Positions 22,140-30,745 of a stretch of 64,000 nucleotides of DNA are shown here, piece by piece (within the stretch, counting starts at the first letter, position 1; each line of letters opens with the position of its first letter). Made by a program: the position numbers and the translations under genes. Under the pieces are notes generated by a model. That model was not told the DNA's origin, did not search any database, and saw only the letters and a list, made by a program, of their open reading frames with translations. This DNA is from Thermoproteota archaeon. Its GTDB lineage: Archaea > Korarchaeota > Korarchaeia > Korarchaeales > Korarchaeaceae. The DNA lies in assembly GCA_026986575.1 (NCBI GenBank), contig JALSOH010000004.1, positions 1 to 64,000 on the forward strand, read 5' to 3'.

Positions 22140-24326
22140 CTAGCTCTCCAAGGCCCCGAATCCCGTCCTAGGCCTGCGCCTCCCCACCGACACCCTGAAT
22201 CCTCTGGTCACGCCTATGACGAACATGGCTACCAAGAGGACGGAGAACGTGAATATGGCCAGGTAGAACATCCTGAGCTCTAGCGGGGTCACTACGACTG
22301 TCTCGTACCTGTAACTGGATGTGGGGACCTTGATCACGGTCTTGCCGTCCGTAGACTTGTAGTTAATGTCAGTCACCCTTATCCACTGCATCCCAGTCGT
22401 CTGGGTCTTCATGGTGAGTATGAGCTTCACGAAGCCCTCTGGCTTCACAGTATCACAGACCATCCTCACCTTTATCCTGTCCTCCTTGGGCTCCCAGACA
22501 GGCTGATCGCACGAGACACCCTCGCCCTTCTTCACCGTCGGGGGATTGACCATGTAGAATCCCGGGGAGAGCTCCATCTCGACCGTGAGGTCCTTGGCCT
22601 CCCCGCTGCCCCTGTTTATCATGTAGATCGAAAAGCCGACAAGGGAGTTGACCACGGTGACGTTCTGGGGTATGTCCTCCACCCTCACGGAGAGCTGGGG
22701 CTTCACTATCGTCACCACCACGGGGGACTTCTGGGCCGACATGAGGACCTTCTGTCCCTCCTTCGGATCCACGTACGTCACCTTGGCGGGACCGAAAGTT
22801 GCCACGCCCTCCCTCACCGCCTTCAGGGTGTAAGATAGGGAGAGCATGCTCCCCGGATTGAGCTTGCTTGCCGTCAGCTTGGTCTTGCCCGAAACGAGCT
22901 TGAATATGTCTTTGGGGTAGTCGTCCTGCACCACCACATTAGTTGCGGCTGCCGTACCGTTGTTCCCCACGATTATGTCCACCTTTATTGTCCCGTTGAT
23001 GGGTATGGTGGTGGAGGAGATGGTCTTGGTTATGTAAACCTTCGAGTACCCGAACTCCTTCACCGTTATGGTGTAAAGCTTGAACGTCTCGTTGTAGTAG
23101 CCCCTTATGTCGAAGTAGCCGACGGTCAAGTTGACCCTGTACATCATACCTTCAGCATCGCTCGGGATGACTATCCTGAACTCTATCGGCTCAGTCATCG
23201 CTCTTGGAGGCATGTCCGAATGAACCACTACCGGAAAGTGACCGCCAGCTATAGCAGAGGGCTTTATAATCTCTATCGGGAGGTTTGGCTCGACTTGGGC
23301 GTTTATCGTCACGTTGTAGGCGTGGTCGTTGCCCACGTTCTGGGCCCTGAAGTTGAACGTTATTGGAGTTCCCGGATTCACCTGCAGGTCTCCGGTGGGT
23401 TTGCTTACGGAGAGAACTACCCTAGGCGCGCCTGTGTGACCCTTGTAGACGAGTCCAAATACCACATTGATGGAGTCTCTTGTGGACTTGGTGGCATTGG
23501 GGTTATATTCGAATATCTTAACGGACCTGTTGGCGTCGAAGCCTTGGTACTGGAAGATCACTGGGTAAGTGACCACGAAGCCTATGGTGTAGTTGCCGTA
23601 GTGCCCCTCACCGGGTCCTGCATGGAATGAGAAGGTCAGTTGATGGGACTCGTTTACATCAAGTCCTCCTAGAGAAATATTCACCTCGTTGCCGGTCTTC
23701 GTGCCCATCACCGGCATTACATTAGTGAGGTTTATCGAGCCCTCTCCCTCCAAGCGGTACCAGTTGGAATAGACCTTCACCCAATCTATAGGCATGGCAC
23801 CGGTGTTCTTCAGGATGACCGGTACTTGGAACTGGGCGTAGGGTTGATCGAACTCCCTCACCTTCGGAAAATCAATCTCCATAGTTAGGTTGGTCTCTGG
23901 GGAGTAAATGGAGTCGAGTAGGTCGAAGTATATTATACCATTCACCTTGTCGGTCAGGTCACCCTTTATGAAGACCTTGTAGAGAATCCTTCCCGTCCTG
24001 CTGCAGCCCTCTCTGACGGGTATCTCCTTCCTAGTATCTAAGGGAGGACCGCCGGCGCTTATCTCAGTAGGAACGTAAACAAAGGGCGTGCAGGGCGCCC
24101 CTTCCTTAAGCACCCTAGCTTCAACATACTGAACCGCTCCGCCCATATACATCAGTCTAGCTTGAAGCTTAAATCCTCCCGGCAGATCATATCTCGTTCC
24201 GTTCTTCATTGACAGACCTTTCCAATCATATCTAATCTCTTGAGCACCTACCTCTATTATCGTGGGGCTTTTCGGGATTAGAAGGGCGCTCAGAAACAGC
24301 AACATTATTAATGTGGCGTATCTCAT
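22140..24326 (-). CDS. Secreted, membrane-anchored multi-Ig-like (CARDB/DUF11-type) protein
   Basis: A 728-residue cell-surface protein. Residues 1-28 form a signal peptide (MRYATLIMLLFLSALLIP). The body is built of several beta-sandwich modules with NNGTAAATNVVVQDDYP and NRGSGEAKDLTVEMELS signatures of CARDB/DUF11-like domains (COG1361). A membrane helix lies near residues 690-712 (FYLAIFTFSVLLVAMFVIGV) and a basic tail follows. Many Asn-X-Ser/Thr sites (NGT, NLT, NES, NYT) suggest N-glycosylation. The domains face outward and the C-terminus is inside. It shares an AT-rich promoter element with the divergent tRNA. A role as an S-layer partner or anchor is inferred. Confidence 0.8.
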   Translation of the reverse strand: MRYATLIMLLFLSALLIPKSPTIIEVGAQEIRYDWKGLSMKNGTRYDLPGGFKLQARLMYMGGAVQYVEARVLKEGAPCTPFVYVPTEISAGGPPLDTRKEIPVREGCSRTGRILYKVFIKGDLTDKVNGIIYFDLLDSIYSPETNLTMEIDFPKVREFDQPYAQFQVPVILKNTGAMPIDWVKVYSNWYRLEGEGSINLTNVMPVMGTKTGNEVNISLGGLDVNESHQLTFSFHAGPGEGHYGNYTIGFVVTYPVIFQYQGFDANRSVKIFEYNPNATKSTRDSINVVFGLVYKGHTGAPRVVLSVSKPTGDLQVNPGTPITFNFRAQNVGNDHAYNVTINAQVEPNLPIEIIKPSAIAGGHFPVVVHSDMPPRAMTEPIEFRIVIPSDAEGMMYRVNLTVGYFDIRGYYNETFKLYTITVKEFGYSKVYITKTISSTTIPINGTIKVDIIVGNNGTAAATNVVVQDDYPKDIFKLVSGKTKLTASKLNPGSMLSLSYTLKAVREGVATFGPAKVTYVDPKEGQKVLMSAQKSPVVVTIVKPQLSVRVEDIPQNVTVVNSLVGFSIYMINRGSGEAKDLTVEMELSPGFYMVNPPTVKKGEGVSCDQPVWEPKEDRIKVRMVCDTVKPEGFVKLILTMKTQTTGMQWIRVTDINYKSTDGKTVIKVPTSSYRYETVVVTPLELRMFYLAIFTFSVLLVAMFVIGVTRGFRVSVGRRRPRTGFGALES

Positions 24327-24355
24327 TCTCGCTCCGGGAACCGGTGGATAGGGGA

Positions 24356-24369
24356 GTATTAATTATATG
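24356..24369. promoter_or_regulatory. AT-rich element likely shared by tRNA-Arg and the surface-protein gene
   Basis: AGTATTAATTATAT is centred about 31 bases before the tRNA-Arg start at 24394 and about 36 bases before the minus-strand ATG at 24326. It is the only TATA-like run in the 67-base gap. Confidence 0.5.
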
Positions 24370-24393
24370 TTCGTCTATGGTCGTATTGACTGG

Positions 24394-24468
24394 GGGCCCG
24401 TAGCTCAGCAAGGATAGAGCGGCGGCCTTCTAAGCCGCAGGTCGGGGGTTCAAGTCCCCCCGGGCCCG
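24394..24468 (+). tRNA. tRNA-Arg (anticodon TCT)
   Basis: A 75-base cloverleaf: acceptor GGGCCCG pairs with CGGGCCC (24461-24467) with discriminator G; D arm GCTC/GAGC; anticodon stem GCGGC/GCCGC with loop CTTCTAA and anticodon TCT at 24429-24431; T arm GGGGG/CCCCC around TTCAAGT. There is no intron and CCA is not encoded. TCT reads AGA (and, with wobble, AGG), the arginine codons that dominate the genes around it. The all-GC acceptor and T stems fit growth at high temperature. A TTTT run follows at 24469. Confidence 0.97.
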
Positions 24469-24472
24469 TTTT
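24469..24472 (+). terminator. TTTT run after tRNA-Arg
   Basis: Four Ts directly follow the discriminator base, a plausible short termination signal. The rest of the segment to 24544 shows nothing else I can support. Confidence 0.35.
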
Positions 24473-24544
24473 CCCGTAGAAAGATTTTGTGGGTAAATTT
24501 CGCTTTATAGCCAAGGCGCACGGTGGATAAGGGGTCCCCATGCT

Positions 24545-25153
24545 CTAATTAGGCCAGTAGGGCCCCAACATCATCTTCCTAAGATCCACGGATTTCTCAC
24601 CGTGTACGTATATGGGAACCCTCCTCACTTGGGAAAGGGGGATCTTACCGAGCCACTGCAGCCCCACCTTGCTCCCCTGCTTGGGGTGAACTATGATGAG
24701 GTAGCTCCTAGTCTCGTCCAAGTCCAAAGCGTACTCTCCGGCTATTGCCAGTATTAGCCTGTCAGTGGCGGCGTACAGGCCCTCCTGACTGCTACCTTGG
24801 ATCCTGACTGTGGAGTTTCTCGGGAATATGTGGACACTTGTGTCTCCTGAGAGGGTGATTAGGAGTGTTACGTTCCCTTGTGGGACCGTGCCCAAGGGTC
24901 CGACCAGTATACTTGTCTCATTCAAATTCCCACCAGAGAAGAACGAGAGCGCCAGTGTGATCGCATAGGAGGATAGTCCTATGCTCCCAGATCCCTCCTT
25001 CATGGTCTGGTTTAGGGGATAGGTTATGGTGACATACCACTTGCCATGACCCCCTGTGGGCTGAGAGGGAGTCTCCTTCAGAAAAACGGAGTAGGCGGCC
25101 AGCCCCGCGATTGCCAGAGCTGCTAGGATGATCACTAGGTACTTAGCTTCCAA
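24545..25153 (-). CDS. Single-pass surface protein of unknown function
   Basis: A 202-residue protein with an N-terminal membrane segment (KYLVIILAALAIAGLAAYSV, residues 4-23) and an extracytoplasmic beta-rich remainder with several N-glycosylation sequons (NQT, NET, NVT, NST). The start is TTG 25153, preceded by GGAGGAG seven bases upstream and overlapping the stop of the upstream gene by 11 bases; an ATG at 25198 would add 15 residues. It is translationally coupled to the large toroid protein and probably works with it. I do not recognise a family. Confidence 0.68.
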   Translation of the reverse strand: MEAKYLVIILAALAIAGLAAYSVFLKETPSQPTGGHGKWYVTITYPLNQTMKEGSGSIGLSSYAITLALSFFSGGNLNETSILVGPLGTVPQGNVTLLITLSGDTSVHIFPRNSTVRIQGSSQEGLYAATDRLILAIAGEYALDLDETRSYLIIVHPKQGSKVGLQWLGKIPLSQVRRVPIYVHGEKSVDLRKMMLGPYWPN

Positions 25154-27575
25154 AGGGGCTCCTCCTCCCCCTCCCTCTTCTCTTGGATGTCCGGGCAACC
25201 AAAGGCGACACCCTTCTCATGCTCTCCCTAGTCCTCTTCGCCCTGTTGTAAAGTCTTATCGCCACGAGGGCAGCTATAACCAGTATTATCGCGGATATAA
25301 GGTAGATGAAGTTCTTGGATACCCTGACCCTCACCTTGATTATGGTCGAGTCGGAGAACTGAGGCATGCTCCTGCCTATGGAGTCCTTGTACTCGTACCC
25401 AACACTAACGAAGCTACCCAGTTCCGTGGCTGGATAGAAGTTGGTCGCCTTCAGCCTAAGTGGTATGGTCATTGTATCGCCAGACTTCAGTTTATCGATC
25501 CTCAGAAGCATAGATCCGTCTGGATTCGGTCTCAGGAGGACATCCTTTGGGATCATGCTCAGGTTCAGGGTTATTCCCTCTCCAGTAGCTATTTTCAGCT
25601 CCACCTCGGTAGCGTCCTCGTTTCCAGTATTAGAGAGGGCCATCACCAGCCCCTTCTCCTCGTCCCATTCAAGTTGGAGATCGGTGGTGTTGGTTGAGAG
25701 GATCACGTAAGGTCTCAAGATGGTCACCTTGACCTCCTTACTTATGTTGTGGACCTCCCCCCTAGCGTCAGTGTAAGTTATCAGCGTGGTGGAGAGGGTC
25801 TGGGGACCGGGTGATGCGTCTGTGGGAATCACCTGATAGACTAGGGCCAGCTTGGCACCCGGATCTAACGGATTGGGAATTACGTAACTACCCAAACTGT
25901 TAGTCGAGGTCACCAACGCAGTTCCATTCCCGGGGAAGCTGGTAACTAGCTCGAATCCCGTACCCAGCTTCTCAATTATGCTTATGTCTGCGATGGGTAG
26001 GTCTCCAGTATTGGACATCACCAGTGTAACGTTGATGGGCTTCCTCAACTGGACGGTCGTTGGTTTCACGGTCTTGGACTCTAGGGAGAGCTTGGGGTTC
26101 CTCAGGATCCTGAAGGTGAGGCTCTTGGTGAAGAGAGGTTTACCGGAATTCGCCTCCTTTATGAACAGCTTGACAGTCACGTTCACGGGAGAGGGCACCT
26201 GATCTGGAGCGGCTATCTTGATGGAGAAATCCTTCGATTTGCCACCCGAGAGGGCCAGCTTTGATGGCAGTTTAGATGAGAGGGCCGCTGGAGATCCTAC
26301 GTCTAAATTCATGAGTAAAGAGAGGGAGCGGGATATCTTGTTCTCCACCTTAACCTTGAGAGTGATCTCGGTTCCCTCTACAACGACCGGAGGATTGTAC
26401 TCGCCGTATCCCCCGACGAAGTAAGCCTGAGCCGAGATTGATGATACTCTCAACCAGTAGGCGAATATCGACACGTAGGTGTAGGTATAGGCGTACCTCA
26501 ACCAAACGAAGGGCAGGTTAGTGAAGAGCCCGTCAGATCTTATAGTGGATGCGAGGTCCACTAATAGTGGCTCGTAGCTCGCAACGAACTTGTCCGTCTC
26601 CAAATAGCCCAGAGAGGAGAACTTAGCTAGGGCATTGAGCGCTAGGGCTGTGGTTATCTCATAGGTTCCGGACGAGTAAGCCTGTTTAACGTTGCTCTCC
26701 AAGTAGGCGACGACACCCTTCACCAGACCGTCGTCCACATCGAATCCTAGGAACATGGCTTCTGCGAGGGCGTCAGCGACATCTCCAGTGACTTGGACGG
26801 ACGAGGACTTCTCCTCCTGCCAGTAGTTGAAGTCTTTGCTCTTTTTAGCGGTAGCCGTGAGGAATGATATCGCCTTCCTGACGCTATTGTCCAAGCCCGC
26901 CACTCTCACACCCACTTCCTTGGCAGCTAGTATGGCCCTGAGGGCCTGCGCGGTGATGCTGGGGCTGGGCTCCTTCAGCTGGAACACATCGGCCTCGGGC
27001 ATCCTCCCCCAACCGCCTCCCTCGCTCTGGAGGGATATGAGCTGGGACACGGAGTGGGCGAGGGAGGAAAGCTTCTCTTTGGGAAGTGCGCCGGCCGCGA
27101 AGGCGCCTGCCACGGCCCTTATAGCCTGGGCACTGAAAGACACATCCACCAGTCTCCCACTTACATCGGAACCCCAAAGGCCGTTGTTCTTAGCACGCTC
27201 GAGCATCCAAGTGGTCATGGATGCCAGCCTAGTCTTGGCCCTAGACACATCGCCTTCATCGAACTCCATGAAGTTAGAGGCCTGAAGGGCCTCTGCGAGA
27301 ATTAGTGATGCGTATATGTTGAACTCCAAGTCTGGTATGGCTCCGAAGGTGAAGCCGCTCTTGTCTACGTAAAGCACCCCGTTGATGTATCCGTAACTTC
27401 CCTGCGGGATCTCACCGGGAGAGTTATACTCGGGAACCCTAGTTACTGCCCTCAGAGGTCCCTCAACAGCCTGCTCTATTATCTCTCTAGAAGTTTGCGA
27501 GGAAGTAAGCATCGTCTGAGAGGCGAGCAGGATGATTAGGAGTAAAGACAGTAGCGAAGACCTCCCCATTCCCAT
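25143..27575 (-). CDS. Secreted alpha/alpha-toroid protein with Ig-like domains and a C-terminal anchor
   Basis: An 810-residue surface protein. A signal peptide (about 1-26) is followed by a helical region (about 30-380) with repeated GGWGRMP, TAQALRAILAAKE and TTALALNALAKF patterns typical of alpha/alpha-toroids (prenyltransferase/squalene cyclase or A2M thioester-domain fold). No DxDD or CGEQ catalytic motif is seen. Residues about 395-735 are three Ig-like or DUF11 modules. A membrane helix (about 755-778, FIYLISAIILVIAALVAIRL) and a basic tail end the protein. It is probably leaderless from CTTATATA at 27600-27607. Function unknown. Confidence 0.75.
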   Translation of the reverse strand: MGMGRSSLLSLLLIILLASQTMLTSSQTSREIIEQAVEGPLRAVTRVPEYNSPGEIPQGSYGYINGVLYVDKSGFTFGAIPDLEFNIYASLILAEALQASNFMEFDEGDVSRAKTRLASMTTWMLERAKNNGLWGSDVSGRLVDVSFSAQAIRAVAGAFAAGALPKEKLSSLAHSVSQLISLQSEGGGWGRMPEADVFQLKEPSPSITAQALRAILAAKEVGVRVAGLDNSVRKAISFLTATAKKSKDFNYWQEEKSSSVQVTGDVADALAEAMFLGFDVDDGLVKGVVAYLESNVKQAYSSGTYEITTALALNALAKFSSLGYLETDKFVASYEPLLVDLASTIRSDGLFTNLPFVWLRYAYTYTYVSIFAYWLRVSSISAQAYFVGGYGEYNPPVVVEGTEITLKVKVENKISRSLSLLMNLDVGSPAALSSKLPSKLALSGGKSKDFSIKIAAPDQVPSPVNVTVKLFIKEANSGKPLFTKSLTFRILRNPKLSLESKTVKPTTVQLRKPINVTLVMSNTGDLPIADISIIEKLGTGFELVTSFPGNGTALVTSTNSLGSYVIPNPLDPGAKLALVYQVIPTDASPGPQTLSTTLITYTDARGEVHNISKEVKVTILRPYVILSTNTTDLQLEWDEEKGLVMALSNTGNEDATEVELKIATGEGITLNLSMIPKDVLLRPNPDGSMLLRIDKLKSGDTMTIPLRLKATNFYPATELGSFVSVGYEYKDSIGRSMPQFSDSTIIKVRVRVSKNFIYLISAIILVIAALVAIRLYNRAKRTRESMRRVSPLVARTSKRRGRGRRSPFGS

Positions 27576-27598
27576 ACCCGCTTGGTAGTGATGGACGA

Positions 27599-27607
27599 AT
27601 ATATAAG
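27599..27607 (-). promoter_or_regulatory. TATA box of the toroid-protein gene
   Basis: CTTATATAT on the minus strand is about 28 bases before ATG 27575. The remaining gap 27609-27875 has no gene or RNA that I can support; it is the untranscribed space between the S-layer terminator and this promoter. Confidence 0.55.
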
Positions 27608-27875
27608 ATGGAATGGATGCTCGTATGAAATCCGTATAGACAGTTGACTAACAGGGGTTGATCGAACGGTGGAGATCCATACGGGGGATTCTCATGCTCT
27701 TCCGAGCCTCGTAGTGGGAGGAGGGGCGCAGATAACACTAGGAGATCATCCGTACTAGCTATGCATTGTATGAAGAGAAGAGTAGGTCCTTGGAATTAAA
27801 GACCATGGGATAGAGCAGACATTGCCGGGGTAGAGGAGATCAAACTAAGCTTAGGGAGAGGAATCAGGGCATGAC

Positions 27876-27910
27876 AGAACAGAAAACAGAAAGAAAGGAA
27901 AGGGGGAGGG
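27876..27910 (-). terminator. Pyrimidine-rich terminator of the S-layer gene
   Basis: Directly after the stop at 27912 the minus strand is a nearly pure pyrimidine tract with several T runs (CCCTTTCC, TTTCTTTC, GTTTTC). Archaeal termination at U-rich tracts after highly expressed genes fits this. No hairpin is apparent. Confidence 0.5.
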
Positions 27911-27911
27911 T

Positions 27912-30680
27912 TTAGCTGCTGGGCAGCCCGACTGGGACTACCAGCACAGGCTGCACAGCGACCCTCGTGGGCACGGTGGTCGGCCTTATACCTATGACTA
28001 TGACGGCGGGAGCGTTGTCGCCTTCACCAGCGTTGTAGTAGGTCTGTATGGTGGTGTTGGCCAGCTTGGTCGGGTCAGCCAGCGCTATGCTGGCAGCCAG
28101 CGTACCGAACCTGTCGGTACCGGCCACGACCAGTATGGCCTTGTCCTCATTCCACGGGTTGCTCTTGGCGTACTGGATCACACCGAGACCGTTGCCGCCC
28201 TCGACCTTGTAGACGTAGGTGGTGTCTATGGTCGGGTCTATCAGCTTGATGGCGTAGGTCAGGTTGATGTCCCTCTCACCGGGAGCGCCCTGCGGGTTGT
28301 ACAGCCAGGAGGTCTTGCCGTCGGTCTTGTAGAGTATGTACAGGTTGCCGGTGTCGTTCAGGTAGTCAACCAGCGTGTTGACCAGAGGACCGCCGACGAG
28401 TATCAGGTTCTTGTTCACCACGTCCTCGCTGAGGGTCTCACCGTCGAAGACCCAGTCGTCCATGTAGGCTATCGGGGCCCTTATGAAGCTGAAGACCTCC
28501 TCCGGGTTGGCGAAGTTGAAGTACAAGTCCTTGTACTCGTCCGGAGTCACATCCTCGAAGACGGTACCGCCCTCGGGCGTGGTCACCGGTACGAGCTCGG
28601 TGGCGCCGGTGAATATGCCATCGCCGTTCCTATCCTCGACCCTATCATAGATGCCAGCGAACACGCCAGTGGCGTTTATCGGGTAGAGCCAGTTGAGCTG
28701 CCAGTGGTAGACAGCGAGGGTTACATCATCGTCCTGCCAGTCAGCATACTTGGTGTACTCGAGGTACTTGCCGCAAGCAGGAGTCTTGGGCTGGTCAGAG
28801 GTCTGGCCGAACAGTGTATCGGGCTCGACGAAGGCCTTGCACTCGAGGTCCTTCATTATCTCGTCCTTCTGAGTGAACTCGTAGAGACCCCAAGTCGGTC
28901 CGCAGGCAGGACCGCAGTACTCGCCAGTTATTCCAGGCGGCAGAGCGGGGCACTCCTGCCCAGCCACGATGAGTCTGTTGACTACGCTGGTGAACCAGTA
29001 GTCCTTGCCACCGACCACGAGGTGGCCGTCATCGTTGAGGGGCTCGTACCAGCCAGTCTCGTTCTGAGTGAAGAGCGTAGCTCCAAGAGTCCCGGACTTG
29101 ACTACCATGTACCACTCTACATCGTTCTGAGTGCTATCGGTGTAGTAGCCGCTTATGCCAAGGAAGGCCTCGTCCTCAGCAAGACCCTCAAGCCACGGGC
29201 CGAAGACAGTCTGCTCATCTACTATGTAACCCTTAGCCTCGTAGAAGTGGCTCGGGGCACCTGCCACAGCACCACCAGCAACGAGACCCATGTTACCTCC
29301 AGCGAAGATCCTCGGGCCAGTAGCGTCAGGATAAGTGGAAAGCTCAAGTATCACATCCACATTGTAGCTTCCGGTGTCAGGGTCAGCAGCATCTGCATAG
29401 TCAGAGCCAGCTGGGTGCGGCCATCCGTAGGTGCTGTCGAAGAACCACTTGGTGTTAGTCCAGTCGAAGTACAGGTCATCGTTCGTTCCACTGTAGGTAG
29501 TTTCACCGTGACCAGGGTAGATGTTCGGGGCAAGTATCAGTGAGTAGAAGTCCATGGTGACAGTCTGAAGGACTTCGTCAACGTCCCTGACAGTTATACC
29601 GAAGTACGGCACCAGCCTCTCGTTGTCGGAGACCACTCCATCTCCGTCTATATCAGCGAGTATGTAGATATCCCTGTGGATCATGCTGTAGAGGAACTTC
29701 TGGAAGCTACCAGGGTTATTGTCCTGAGGTACGGGTAGCCCACTGTTCTCAATGTGGAAGTAATCAACGGGCGTGTCAGTTCCTATCTTATAGGCTATGA
29801 AGCCCACGCTGTAAGTGTTAGGCTCATCAACCTCCACAGTCTCAGCTACGAGCTTATAGCCCATCCACGGCAGGGTTATCTCGGTACCCTTCTTGACGTC
29901 TATCGGGTTCAGCGGGTGTATGAAGTAGAACCCACCGTGAGCCCAAGTGTAGGTTATCGGACCCGCGACGGGTGTGTAGTCCTTGGTGGTGTCCCAAGCA
30001 TCATAGCTGAAGGTGAAGGTTCCGGGGCAGTCGAAGGCCAGAGGAACCGCATATCCAGTCTTCTCGTTGTTGGTGTACGCAGGTGGGAAGTATCCAGGAG
30101 CGAAGACCACCCACTCCTTAAGGTCGTCGGGATCGACCTCGAGACCTATGGAGTAAGTTATCTGAGTTGGGTTCATGTCGCTCTTCACGCCAGAAGGCAC
30201 GAAGACATAGCCGTCATGAAGTGGGTATATCTTGTCGAATGGATCAGGATCTCCAGCACCCCAGTTCCAGCTCCAGAGGAAGCCCCAGAAGTCTTTTGTG
30301 TCAGCATCATTGTCGTATTCTCCCCAGTCGCCCACGAGATCCAGAGCCTGGTACCTGTGGCCGTATGCCTCAGCGGTGAAGCTACCGTGGTAGAGGGTTA
30401 TGCCGTTGGCGGCGGCGTGCTTGGCATCGACCCACATGGCATTAGTATAGTATAGGTGAGAGGCTATCTTGGCGGCTATGAGGGTGGCGCCGAGAACGTC
30501 CTCGGGAGCGGCCTTGCTGCCGAGTATGATGGCTATGTCGGGCATGCCGTCGAAGTCGTAGTCAATGGTTCCGTCCTGCACGAAAGGCTGCGGGAACATG
30601 TGGATTGGGTAGGCCATAGCAGGGAGCAGGCTTGCCCCCAGCAGCACTACCAAGGCTGCTATTATGTATGCCTTCTTCAT
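27912..30680 (-). CDS. S-layer-type major surface protein
   Basis: A 922-residue secreted protein, likely the S-layer subunit. Signal peptide about 1-23 (MKKAYIIAALVVLLGASLLP). The first mature segment, with DFDGMPDIAIILGSKAAP and a following ATLIAAKIASHLYYT, and the last segment, with AILVVAGTDRFGTLAASIAL, resemble the paired N- and C-terminal S-layer domains of Thermococcales and methanogens. Two Ca-binding-like loops occur: DIDGDGVVSDNE (about 343) and DRNGDGIFTG (about 680). A Cys-rich patch lies near 590-650. There is no C-terminal membrane helix. The start ATG has GGAGGTG six bases upstream; codon use is highly uniform, as in very highly expressed genes. Confidence 0.82.
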   Translation of the reverse strand: MKKAYIIAALVVLLGASLLPAMAYPIHMFPQPFVQDGTIDYDFDGMPDIAIILGSKAAPEDVLGATLIAAKIASHLYYTNAMWVDAKHAAANGITLYHGSFTAEAYGHRYQALDLVGDWGEYDNDADTKDFWGFLWSWNWGAGDPDPFDKIYPLHDGYVFVPSGVKSDMNPTQITYSIGLEVDPDDLKEWVVFAPGYFPPAYTNNEKTGYAVPLAFDCPGTFTFSYDAWDTTKDYTPVAGPITYTWAHGGFYFIHPLNPIDVKKGTEITLPWMGYKLVAETVEVDEPNTYSVGFIAYKIGTDTPVDYFHIENSGLPVPQDNNPGSFQKFLYSMIHRDIYILADIDGDGVVSDNERLVPYFGITVRDVDEVLQTVTMDFYSLILAPNIYPGHGETTYSGTNDDLYFDWTNTKWFFDSTYGWPHPAGSDYADAADPDTGSYNVDVILELSTYPDATGPRIFAGGNMGLVAGGAVAGAPSHFYEAKGYIVDEQTVFGPWLEGLAEDEAFLGISGYYTDSTQNDVEWYMVVKSGTLGATLFTQNETGWYEPLNDDGHLVVGGKDYWFTSVVNRLIVAGQECPALPPGITGEYCGPACGPTWGLYEFTQKDEIMKDLECKAFVEPDTLFGQTSDQPKTPACGKYLEYTKYADWQDDDVTLAVYHWQLNWLYPINATGVFAGIYDRVEDRNGDGIFTGATELVPVTTPEGGTVFEDVTPDEYKDLYFNFANPEEVFSFIRAPIAYMDDWVFDGETLSEDVVNKNLILVGGPLVNTLVDYLNDTGNLYILYKTDGKTSWLYNPQGAPGERDINLTYAIKLIDPTIDTTYVYKVEGGNGLGVIQYAKSNPWNEDKAILVVAGTDRFGTLAASIALADPTKLANTTIQTYYNAGEGDNAPAVIVIGIRPTTVPTRVAVQPVLVVPVGLPSS

Positions 30681-30745
30681 AGTAACACCTCCCCATGCCA
30701 CCTGATGTGGATGTGGCAAGGGGCTGAGGGTCGGTGGAAGGGGGC

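Follow-up and report, generated by a model that had tools for sequence, protein, structure and literature searches.

Four neighbouring genes on one strand of the genome of a heat-loving korarchaeon constitute a real envelope module that is found throughout a phylum and that may well be a second S-layer of the lattice-plus-stalk type. They encode an S-layer-type protein (S), two large proteins with a C-terminal membrane helix (T810 and D728) and a small single-pass partner (s217). We describe their gene content, order, topology, paralogy and co-occurrence as observed in the genomes, together with a predicted fold of T810. The anchoring itself we infer: S would be the lattice protein and T810 its anchor, and the place of contact between them is likewise a proposal. 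To the reading that the four genes are one envelope module, with S as the lattice, one or more separate stalks, and T810 together with s217 as the dock of S, we assign a probability of about one half.

Passages of a 2021 review describe archaeal S-layer anchoring as poorly understood (PMC8559796). Among the literature titles and abstracts searched we found nothing on a korarchaeal S-layer or envelope, and the literature search returned no paper combining an alpha/alpha toroid with archaeal S-layers. An S-layer gene that is locked, within one phylum, to putative stalk genes and a small partner supplies named candidates for the membrane attachment of PF05124-type proteins.

Organization of the locus

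The analysed window is a stretch of 64,000 nucleotides from a genome (G000) of 1.91 Mb in 11 contigs. Named relatives of its S gene belong to Thermoproteota/Crenarchaeota MAGs (hydrothermal) and to Candidatus Methanodesulfokora washburnensis, which places the lineage, probably, in the class Korarchaeia. On the minus strand the genes follow the order eIF2-alpha, S, T810, s217, D728, ribosomal P1 and AlaRS, with a tRNA gene on the plus strand between s217 and D728 (Table 1); the names eIF2-alpha, P1 and AlaRS are our reading of the translations.

Table 1. Features of the putative envelope module, with positions in the window
Feature	Positions	Strand	Evidence
S, S-layer protein, 922 aa	27912-30680	-	PF05124, TIGR01564, PDB 9FSA match, hydropathy, conservation
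S mRNA leader hairpin	30689-30723	-	Folding and aligned leaders
T810, 810-aa candidate stalk	25143-27575	-	AF2 model, fold matches, profile match, tails of relatives
s217, small single-pass protein	24545-25153 (202 aa, TTG start)	-	Hydropathy, relatives
tRNA gene, antisense between s217 and D728	24394-24468	+	Rfam RF00005, 70.3 bits
D728, 728-aa candidate stalk	22140-24326	-	Pfam domains, hydropathy, paralogy to T810, head swap

The earlier note, made from the letters of this DNA, had described S as a protein with a signal peptide and without a C-terminal membrane helix, and had pointed to two large Ig-like proteins on the same strand, with C-terminal helices and basic tails, and to a small single-pass partner as its possible membrane stalks. 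Hydropathy bears out the description of S, whose only hydrophobic segment is at residues 6-24, and that of s217, whose one helix is N-terminal (residues 6-24). Both large proteins do have the C-terminal helix and the basic tail, but T810 is Ig-like in its C-terminal half only.

A/T-rich boxes, recognized by eye in the window, lie upstream of S, T810 and D728 individually, which makes three transcripts likely. The start of s217 is probably the TTG at 25153 and not that of the 217-aa ORF; with this start the gene shares 11 bases with T810, an overlap that most relatives have too and that points to one translational unit. The hairpin in the S leader ends on the ribosome-binding site GGGGAGGTG. 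Its C-rich and G-rich arms (CCCC...GGGG) beside that site are kept in all 14 aligned S leaders, stem sequence and loop length differ between relatives, and folding z-scores range from -0.8 to -3.4 (9 leaders).

An antisense tRNA-Arg, its anticodon TCT read only in the relatives, separates s217 from D728 in members of the genus and also in G016 and G020. At two loci (L102:5150-5243 and L110:14871-14963) ARAGORN names a tRNA-Pyl where relatives carry tRNA-Arg beside s217, possibly a misnamed or intron-bearing tRNA.

Co-occurrence and synteny across the phylum

The phylum set comprised 29 genomes (G000-G028), 19 of them at least 90% complete. S was searched in 61 genomes, single-sequence D728, T810 and s217 in 29 (a partly different set), and profiles of T810, s217 and D728, together with PF05124, in 394. 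All 19 of the more complete genomes carry S and T810, and 18 of the 19 carry s217 and D728; the sole miss, for both, is G010, in which a contig ends inside T810. In G001 all that is present of S is a 33-aa end piece, located where a contig breaks off. Among the ten less complete genomes, G004, G013, G019 and G028 carry T810, s217 and D728, G006 has a partial D728 at a contig end, and all three are absent from G003, G017, G021, G023 and G024 (66-86% complete). An S gene without these neighbours anywhere, which the earlier note had named as the finding that would count against its proposal, does not occur among the 19 genomes that are at least 90% complete; G017 and G023 have S alone and so formally present that finding, but they are 78% and 72% complete, and S lies at a contig edge in both, so that absence of the neighbours is indistinguishable from missing sequence.

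S lies immediately before T810 in 18 genomes and, as the fragment just mentioned, in G001 (by profile), T810 is followed by s217, overlapping or at most 52 bases apart, in 22 of 22 genomes, and s217 is followed by D728 in 18 of 22, the exceptions being G022, G026, G027 and G028. In G022 (Methanodesulfokora) S does not adjoin T810-s217. The order S-T810-s217 is kept across families and is intact in G025, G026 and G028, although AlaRS, P1 and eIF2-alpha are arranged there unlike in the window. Since most genomes keep the whole neighbourhood from eIF2-alpha to AlaRS, part of the synteny is general. S, T810, s217 and D728 are kept together through the phylum, which suggests that the candidate stalks may tie the S-layer to the cell, and because it recurs in this way the four-gene grouping is far beyond chance.

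Two rearrangements were observed in passing. In G022 (L152 = G022:C87 and L190 = G022:C66), integrase and D5-type helicase genes come after s217, and D728 is found on a separate contig with a small s217 fragment; the cluster was probably split by an element integrated at the tRNA next to s217. In G011 the S-layer cluster adjoins a block of three genes, L44e and S27e among them (L096:14289-15292), which is inverted with respect to the window.

Outside the phylum, the profiles detected no full-length T810 or D728 in the 394 genomes; matches there were partial, to Ig or toroid regions, the best being 2.9e-17 for T810 and 5.2e-29 over 279 columns for D728. The PF05124 family has a wide distribution, occurring in 233 of the 394 genomes in all. 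As the family is common outside the phylum where full-length T810 and D728 are missing, the candidate stalks would be at most a lineage-specific solution.

Protein distances were compared for the 11 genomes whose fetched stretch contains all four genes (S, T810, s217 and D728) in complete form, the others being dropped, and partial correlations were computed for the 8 genus members with all four complete, with AlaRS divergence removed and 5760 permutations each. For distances in the S base, partial r was 0.89 (p 0.0002) with the T810 toroid, 0.64 with the T810 Ig part, 0.64 with the D728 Ig part, 0.51 with s217, 0.35 with the D728 head and 0.22 with P1, values that are confounded by linkage, T810 being the nearest gene to S, and that come from species pairs which are not independent. 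Of the parts compared, the T810 toroid is the one that S-base distances follow most closely, which is suggestive only, since neighbours share a recombination history.

The candidate lattice protein

S matches Pfam PF05124 (S_layer_C) at 3.6e-36 and 124.9 bits, against a curated cut-off of 23.9, and TIGR01564 at 3.5e-14 and 52.4 bits, against a cut-off of 25, and it is the sole good PF05124 lattice candidate in its own genome. A signal peptide (about residues 1-23) precedes a base or anchor region in two halves, N (about 25-110) and C (about 690-890), which are separated by a variable insert (about 111-640). Among 8 species of the genus, identity to the window averages 91% in the base halves and 76% in the insert, and residues 891-902 are identical in all 8.

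A single solved structure, PDB 9FSA, is matched by S, at 1.6e-6 with the single sequence and 5.8e-12 with the profile; in the profile search, a comparison of sequence only, both the N and the C half align to it. Passages of PMC11410804 identify this structure as the anchor, a dimer, in the S-layer protein of Methanococcus voltae, with residues 24-75 joined to 484-576. Given this match, the conserved base of S is probably its membrane-facing part, though it has no membrane helix. Fold prediction of S from a 16-row alignment gave no usable model (pLDDT 34.5).

The C-terminal tail of S (903-922) is conserved, hydrophobic and proline-rich. We considered it as a membrane helix and rejected it as such, because it is short and proline-rich and hydropathy is against it; in the distant relatives G026 and G027 the hydropathy of the tail reaches 2.0-2.4, a stronger stretch than in the window. 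Elsewhere in G000, S_layer_C-like tails are also present in an SBP_bac_5 substrate-binding protein (G000:C4:472092, L125) and in a thioredoxin-like protein (G000:C6:259506, L126).

The stalk candidates and their small partner

Hydropathy places a signal segment of T810 at residues 8-26 and a C-terminal helix at 757-775 (754-786 in the model), followed by about 35 strongly basic residues; the near-identical tails of close relatives have a net charge of +12. The AF2 model (pLDDT 82.7, 11-row alignment) comprises the signal peptide, an alpha/alpha toroid head (29-376), three Ig-like domains (379-751), the third of which runs directly into the helix without a coiled coil, and the membrane helix. 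The predicted toroid superimposes on squalene-hopene cyclase 8pak (Z 25.3, rmsd 3.8 over 299) and on the TED of complement C5, 9y6c (Z 23.6, rmsd 2.9 over 269), and the T810 profile also finds squalene-hopene cyclase in PDB by sequence (1.5e-6). T810 has no cysteines and is therefore not a thioester protein. DXDD is the catalytic motif of squalene-hopene cyclases; T810 of the window has DVDD at residues 279-282, incompletely kept by the aligned relatives. Integrin alpha-chain legs are among the top Foldseek rows for the Ig part, with TM-scores below 0.2; as modelled, this part is like integrin legs, and like other strings of Ig domains, in layout and not by kinship.

D728 has hydrophobic segments at 6-24 and at 686-704; its tail is short and basic, with a net charge of +5 in close relatives. 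A beta-rich, allelically variable head (about 25-300) precedes Ig/DUF11/TRAP-beta-like domains (about 300-680), in which TRAP-beta/DUF11/CARDB-type Pfam domains and a PDB TRAP-beta entry (1e-9) are matched; we read these matches as generic Ig similarity, and Ig/DUF11 stalks are themselves of a generic kind, which counts against the anchor reading. At the C terminus, over about 350 columns that include the helix, T810 and D728 align as paralogues (hhalign, pairwise, 99.8%, 1.9e-28), the sequence alignment of D728 with the Ig part of T810 extending to the helix, and their heads differ. Between the window and G015, D728 is 67% identical in the head and 98% in the stalk, and the DNA is a mosaic, with about 55-80% identity over the head (about 23450-24205) and about 90% on both sides. 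A head that has been replaced between close relatives looks exposed and under diversifying pressure, and this swap, together with the looser linkage of the gene, points more to a variable surface head than to a conserved dock. The two large proteins, first put forward side by side as stalk candidates, thus differ in linkage: T810-s217 form a tight unit with S, but the D728 gene lies apart from the others in 4 of 22 genomes and has had its head swapped.

No PGF motif was found before the C-terminal helix of T810 or D728; archaeosortase (PGF-CTERM) substrates carry it just before that helix, as stated in passages of PMC8559796. A C-terminal basic-x-L/F-G end, seen in 14 of 23 T810-family ORFs (the 23 take in one truncated ORF and one duplicate entry of a locus) and in 15 of 19 D728-family ORFs, was rejected as a sorting signal of the two proteins, since it also ends 40 of 465 control ORFs and is lost in several lineages. 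In G026, D728 is followed by a gene for a 460-aa protein with a signal peptide, a C-terminal helix and the end KPKLG (L104:5671-7053), perhaps a third stalk.

For s217, comparison with PDB gave no meaningful match, and profile-profile comparison gave none with S. A distant relative occurs in methanogen-like genomes (96.3%, 1.7e-9 over 93 columns). Weak matches were obtained in 10 genomes outside the phylum; an S-layer gene adjoins in G049 and G182, and in G339 a weak S fragment lies near the s217-like gene. That s217-like genes always accompany PF05124 genes was rejected, there being no S-layer match beside the gene in 7 of the 10. The distant relatives that adjoin an S-layer gene in two methanogen-like genomes (L165:8848-9429 and L173:8084-8641) have a cysteine near the end of the signal segment.

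A proposed architecture and its alternatives

In the architecture that we propose, S would form the lattice, with the base domain made from its N- and C-terminal halves facing the membrane. T810 would stand in the membrane by its helix and basic cytoplasmic tail, its three Ig-like domains making a rod across the pseudo-periplasm with the alpha/alpha toroid at the tip, and the S base would be docked by this toroid, or else by the top Ig domain. The s217 protein, produced from the same message as T810, may be an assembly partner at the membrane. D728 would be a parallel stalk, a paralogue that shares the rod and the membrane segment of T810 but has a different, exchangeable head, serving as a second stalk or as a surface head, probably in the same layer.

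The four genes might instead belong to one envelope module in which T810, s217 and D728 are S-layer-associated surface proteins, with roles in adhesion, ligand capture or interaction with proteins or viruses, while S is fixed by something else, for instance its own tail or lipid; we consider this possible but somewhat unlikely. The window and G015 differ in the D728 head as they would if it were exchanged in the manner of a receptor or adhesin, and the T810 toroid matches the complement TED, a fold with which complement TED proteins bind ligands. S ends in 20 conserved, hydrophobic residues, the stretch being more hydrophobic in G026 and G027, but these do not make a membrane helix. Moreover, T810-s217 occur as constantly as S does, and an accessory adhesin would not usually be so conserved. 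That D728 is the real S-layer stalk, T810-s217 having some other envelope function, appears quite unlikely to us: D728 has the rod and membrane segment of T810, and its Ig-type domains, with no toroid, come closer to the beta-sandwich domains of SlaB as described in passages of PMC10903991, yet of all members D728 has the loosest linkage (18 of 22), and the evolution of its head does not keep pace with that of S (partial r 0.35).

Toroid-plus-Ig-stalk proteins could also be general archaeal factors of cell shape or envelope biogenesis tied to a tubulin-like cytoskeleton, with the S-layer gene a mere neighbour. In Thermococcales-like genomes the relatives of toroid and stalk adjoin a CetZ-like gene, not an S-layer gene: the CetZ-like gene comes directly after the toroid gene in 5 of 5 fetched loci (family assigned by Pfam scan in two and by BLAST in the other three), in G055 and G075 the gene directly before the toroid gene encodes an Ig stalk with a C-terminal helix, and the thermococcal toroids resemble that of T810 (hhalign 97.4%, 1.1e-11). 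However, the korarchaeal cluster is without a tubulin-family gene, the two FtsZ/tubulin-family genes of the genome being about 90-115 kb away, a C-terminal helix is missing from the one thermococcal toroid protein inspected, and the order S-T810-s217 is constant across families; we give this explanation little credence. Even less can be said for a chance neighbourhood frozen in a slowly rearranging segment, which we hold to be very improbable: the housekeeping genes on both sides are kept in most genomes as well, but the S-T810-s217 order survives where those flanks differ.

The reading of S as lattice and T810-s217 as its dock can be broadened, in a form that we regard as doubtful. In this extension T810 would be toroid-tipped and integrin-like, its TED-like head gripping the dimeric S base and its basic tail linking inward to the membrane surface, the nucleoid or an FtsZ/CetZ-type cytoskeleton; D728 would extend an exchangeable head through the same lattice, and the s217-type protein would be a general helper of PF05124 proteins. 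The stalk-toroid-CetZ gene order of Thermococcales hints at the inward cytoskeletal link, and the distant relative beside an S-layer gene in two methanogen-like genomes hints at the general helper.

Comparison with known systems

The T810 head shares its toroid fold with the TED of complement C3/C5 and alpha-2-macroglobulin, from which it differs in having no thioester cysteine, and with squalene-hopene cyclase, from which it differs in that DXDD is not conserved among relatives. With the alpha-chain legs of integrins T810 shares tandem Ig-like domains that lead into a single membrane helix, at the low TM-scores given above. An operon of the Thermococcales-like genomes (L184, L183, L154, L155, L157) encodes an Ig stalk, a secreted toroid protein, a CetZ-like tubulin and a protein of 210 aa that contains hydrophobic segments; in G055 it is followed by genes with class III (pilin-type) signal peptides.

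Tetrabrachion/STABLE of Staphylothermus, the stalk of which is a coiled coil, resembles the proposed module in being a stalked lattice. Tetrabrachion is presented as a long-stalked protein in passages of PMC4460559. In Methanodesulfokora, a 1262-aa subtilase gene directly after an S fragment (L114, G022:C68, 8404-12192) recalls the STABLE protease of tetrabrachion.

S resembles the S-layer proteins of Methanococcales and Thermococcales that belong to PF05124/TIGR01564 in its base domain, which is split and matches 9FSA of M. voltae, a dimeric anchor termed not described previously in the corresponding passage of PMC11410804. They differ in that the insert of S is much larger and that its candidate stalk genes are linked, full-length ones being missing in the other archaea searched. 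Archaeal anchors, in passages of PMC8559796, include C-terminal helices and PGF-lipid anchors; of the anchors named there, S has neither.

A close parallel is the SlaA/SlaB pair of Sulfolobales, in which, according to passages of PMC10903991 and PMC5744192, the lattice protein has no membrane helix and an adjacent gene encodes a stalk of tandem beta-sandwich domains with a C-terminal membrane helix. Our cluster likewise has a separate lattice candidate without a membrane helix and an adjoining candidate stalk gene, and both T810 and D728 have a single C-terminal helix, preceded by three Ig-like domains in the T810 model and by DUF11/TRAP-beta/CARDB domains in D728. It departs from that pair in the toroid tip, in having two paralogous candidate stalks and a small partner, and in S being of the methanococcal PF05124 type, not SlaA; moreover, the long trimeric coiled coil that SlaB has before its helix is missing in the T810 model. 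The earlier proposal that two large proteins act as SlaB-like stalks of unrelated sequence thus holds for their layout, their adjacency to S and their co-occurrence with it, and family searches gave no Pfam or NCBIfam match that names SlaB, but the two candidates are not equivalent. With beta-sandwich domains and helix in common and the coiled coil missing, T810 and D728 may work like SlaB without being filed as SlaB, and the module, if our reading is true, would be a second lattice-plus-stalk wall, built outside the Sulfolobales and with an alpha/alpha toroid fold.
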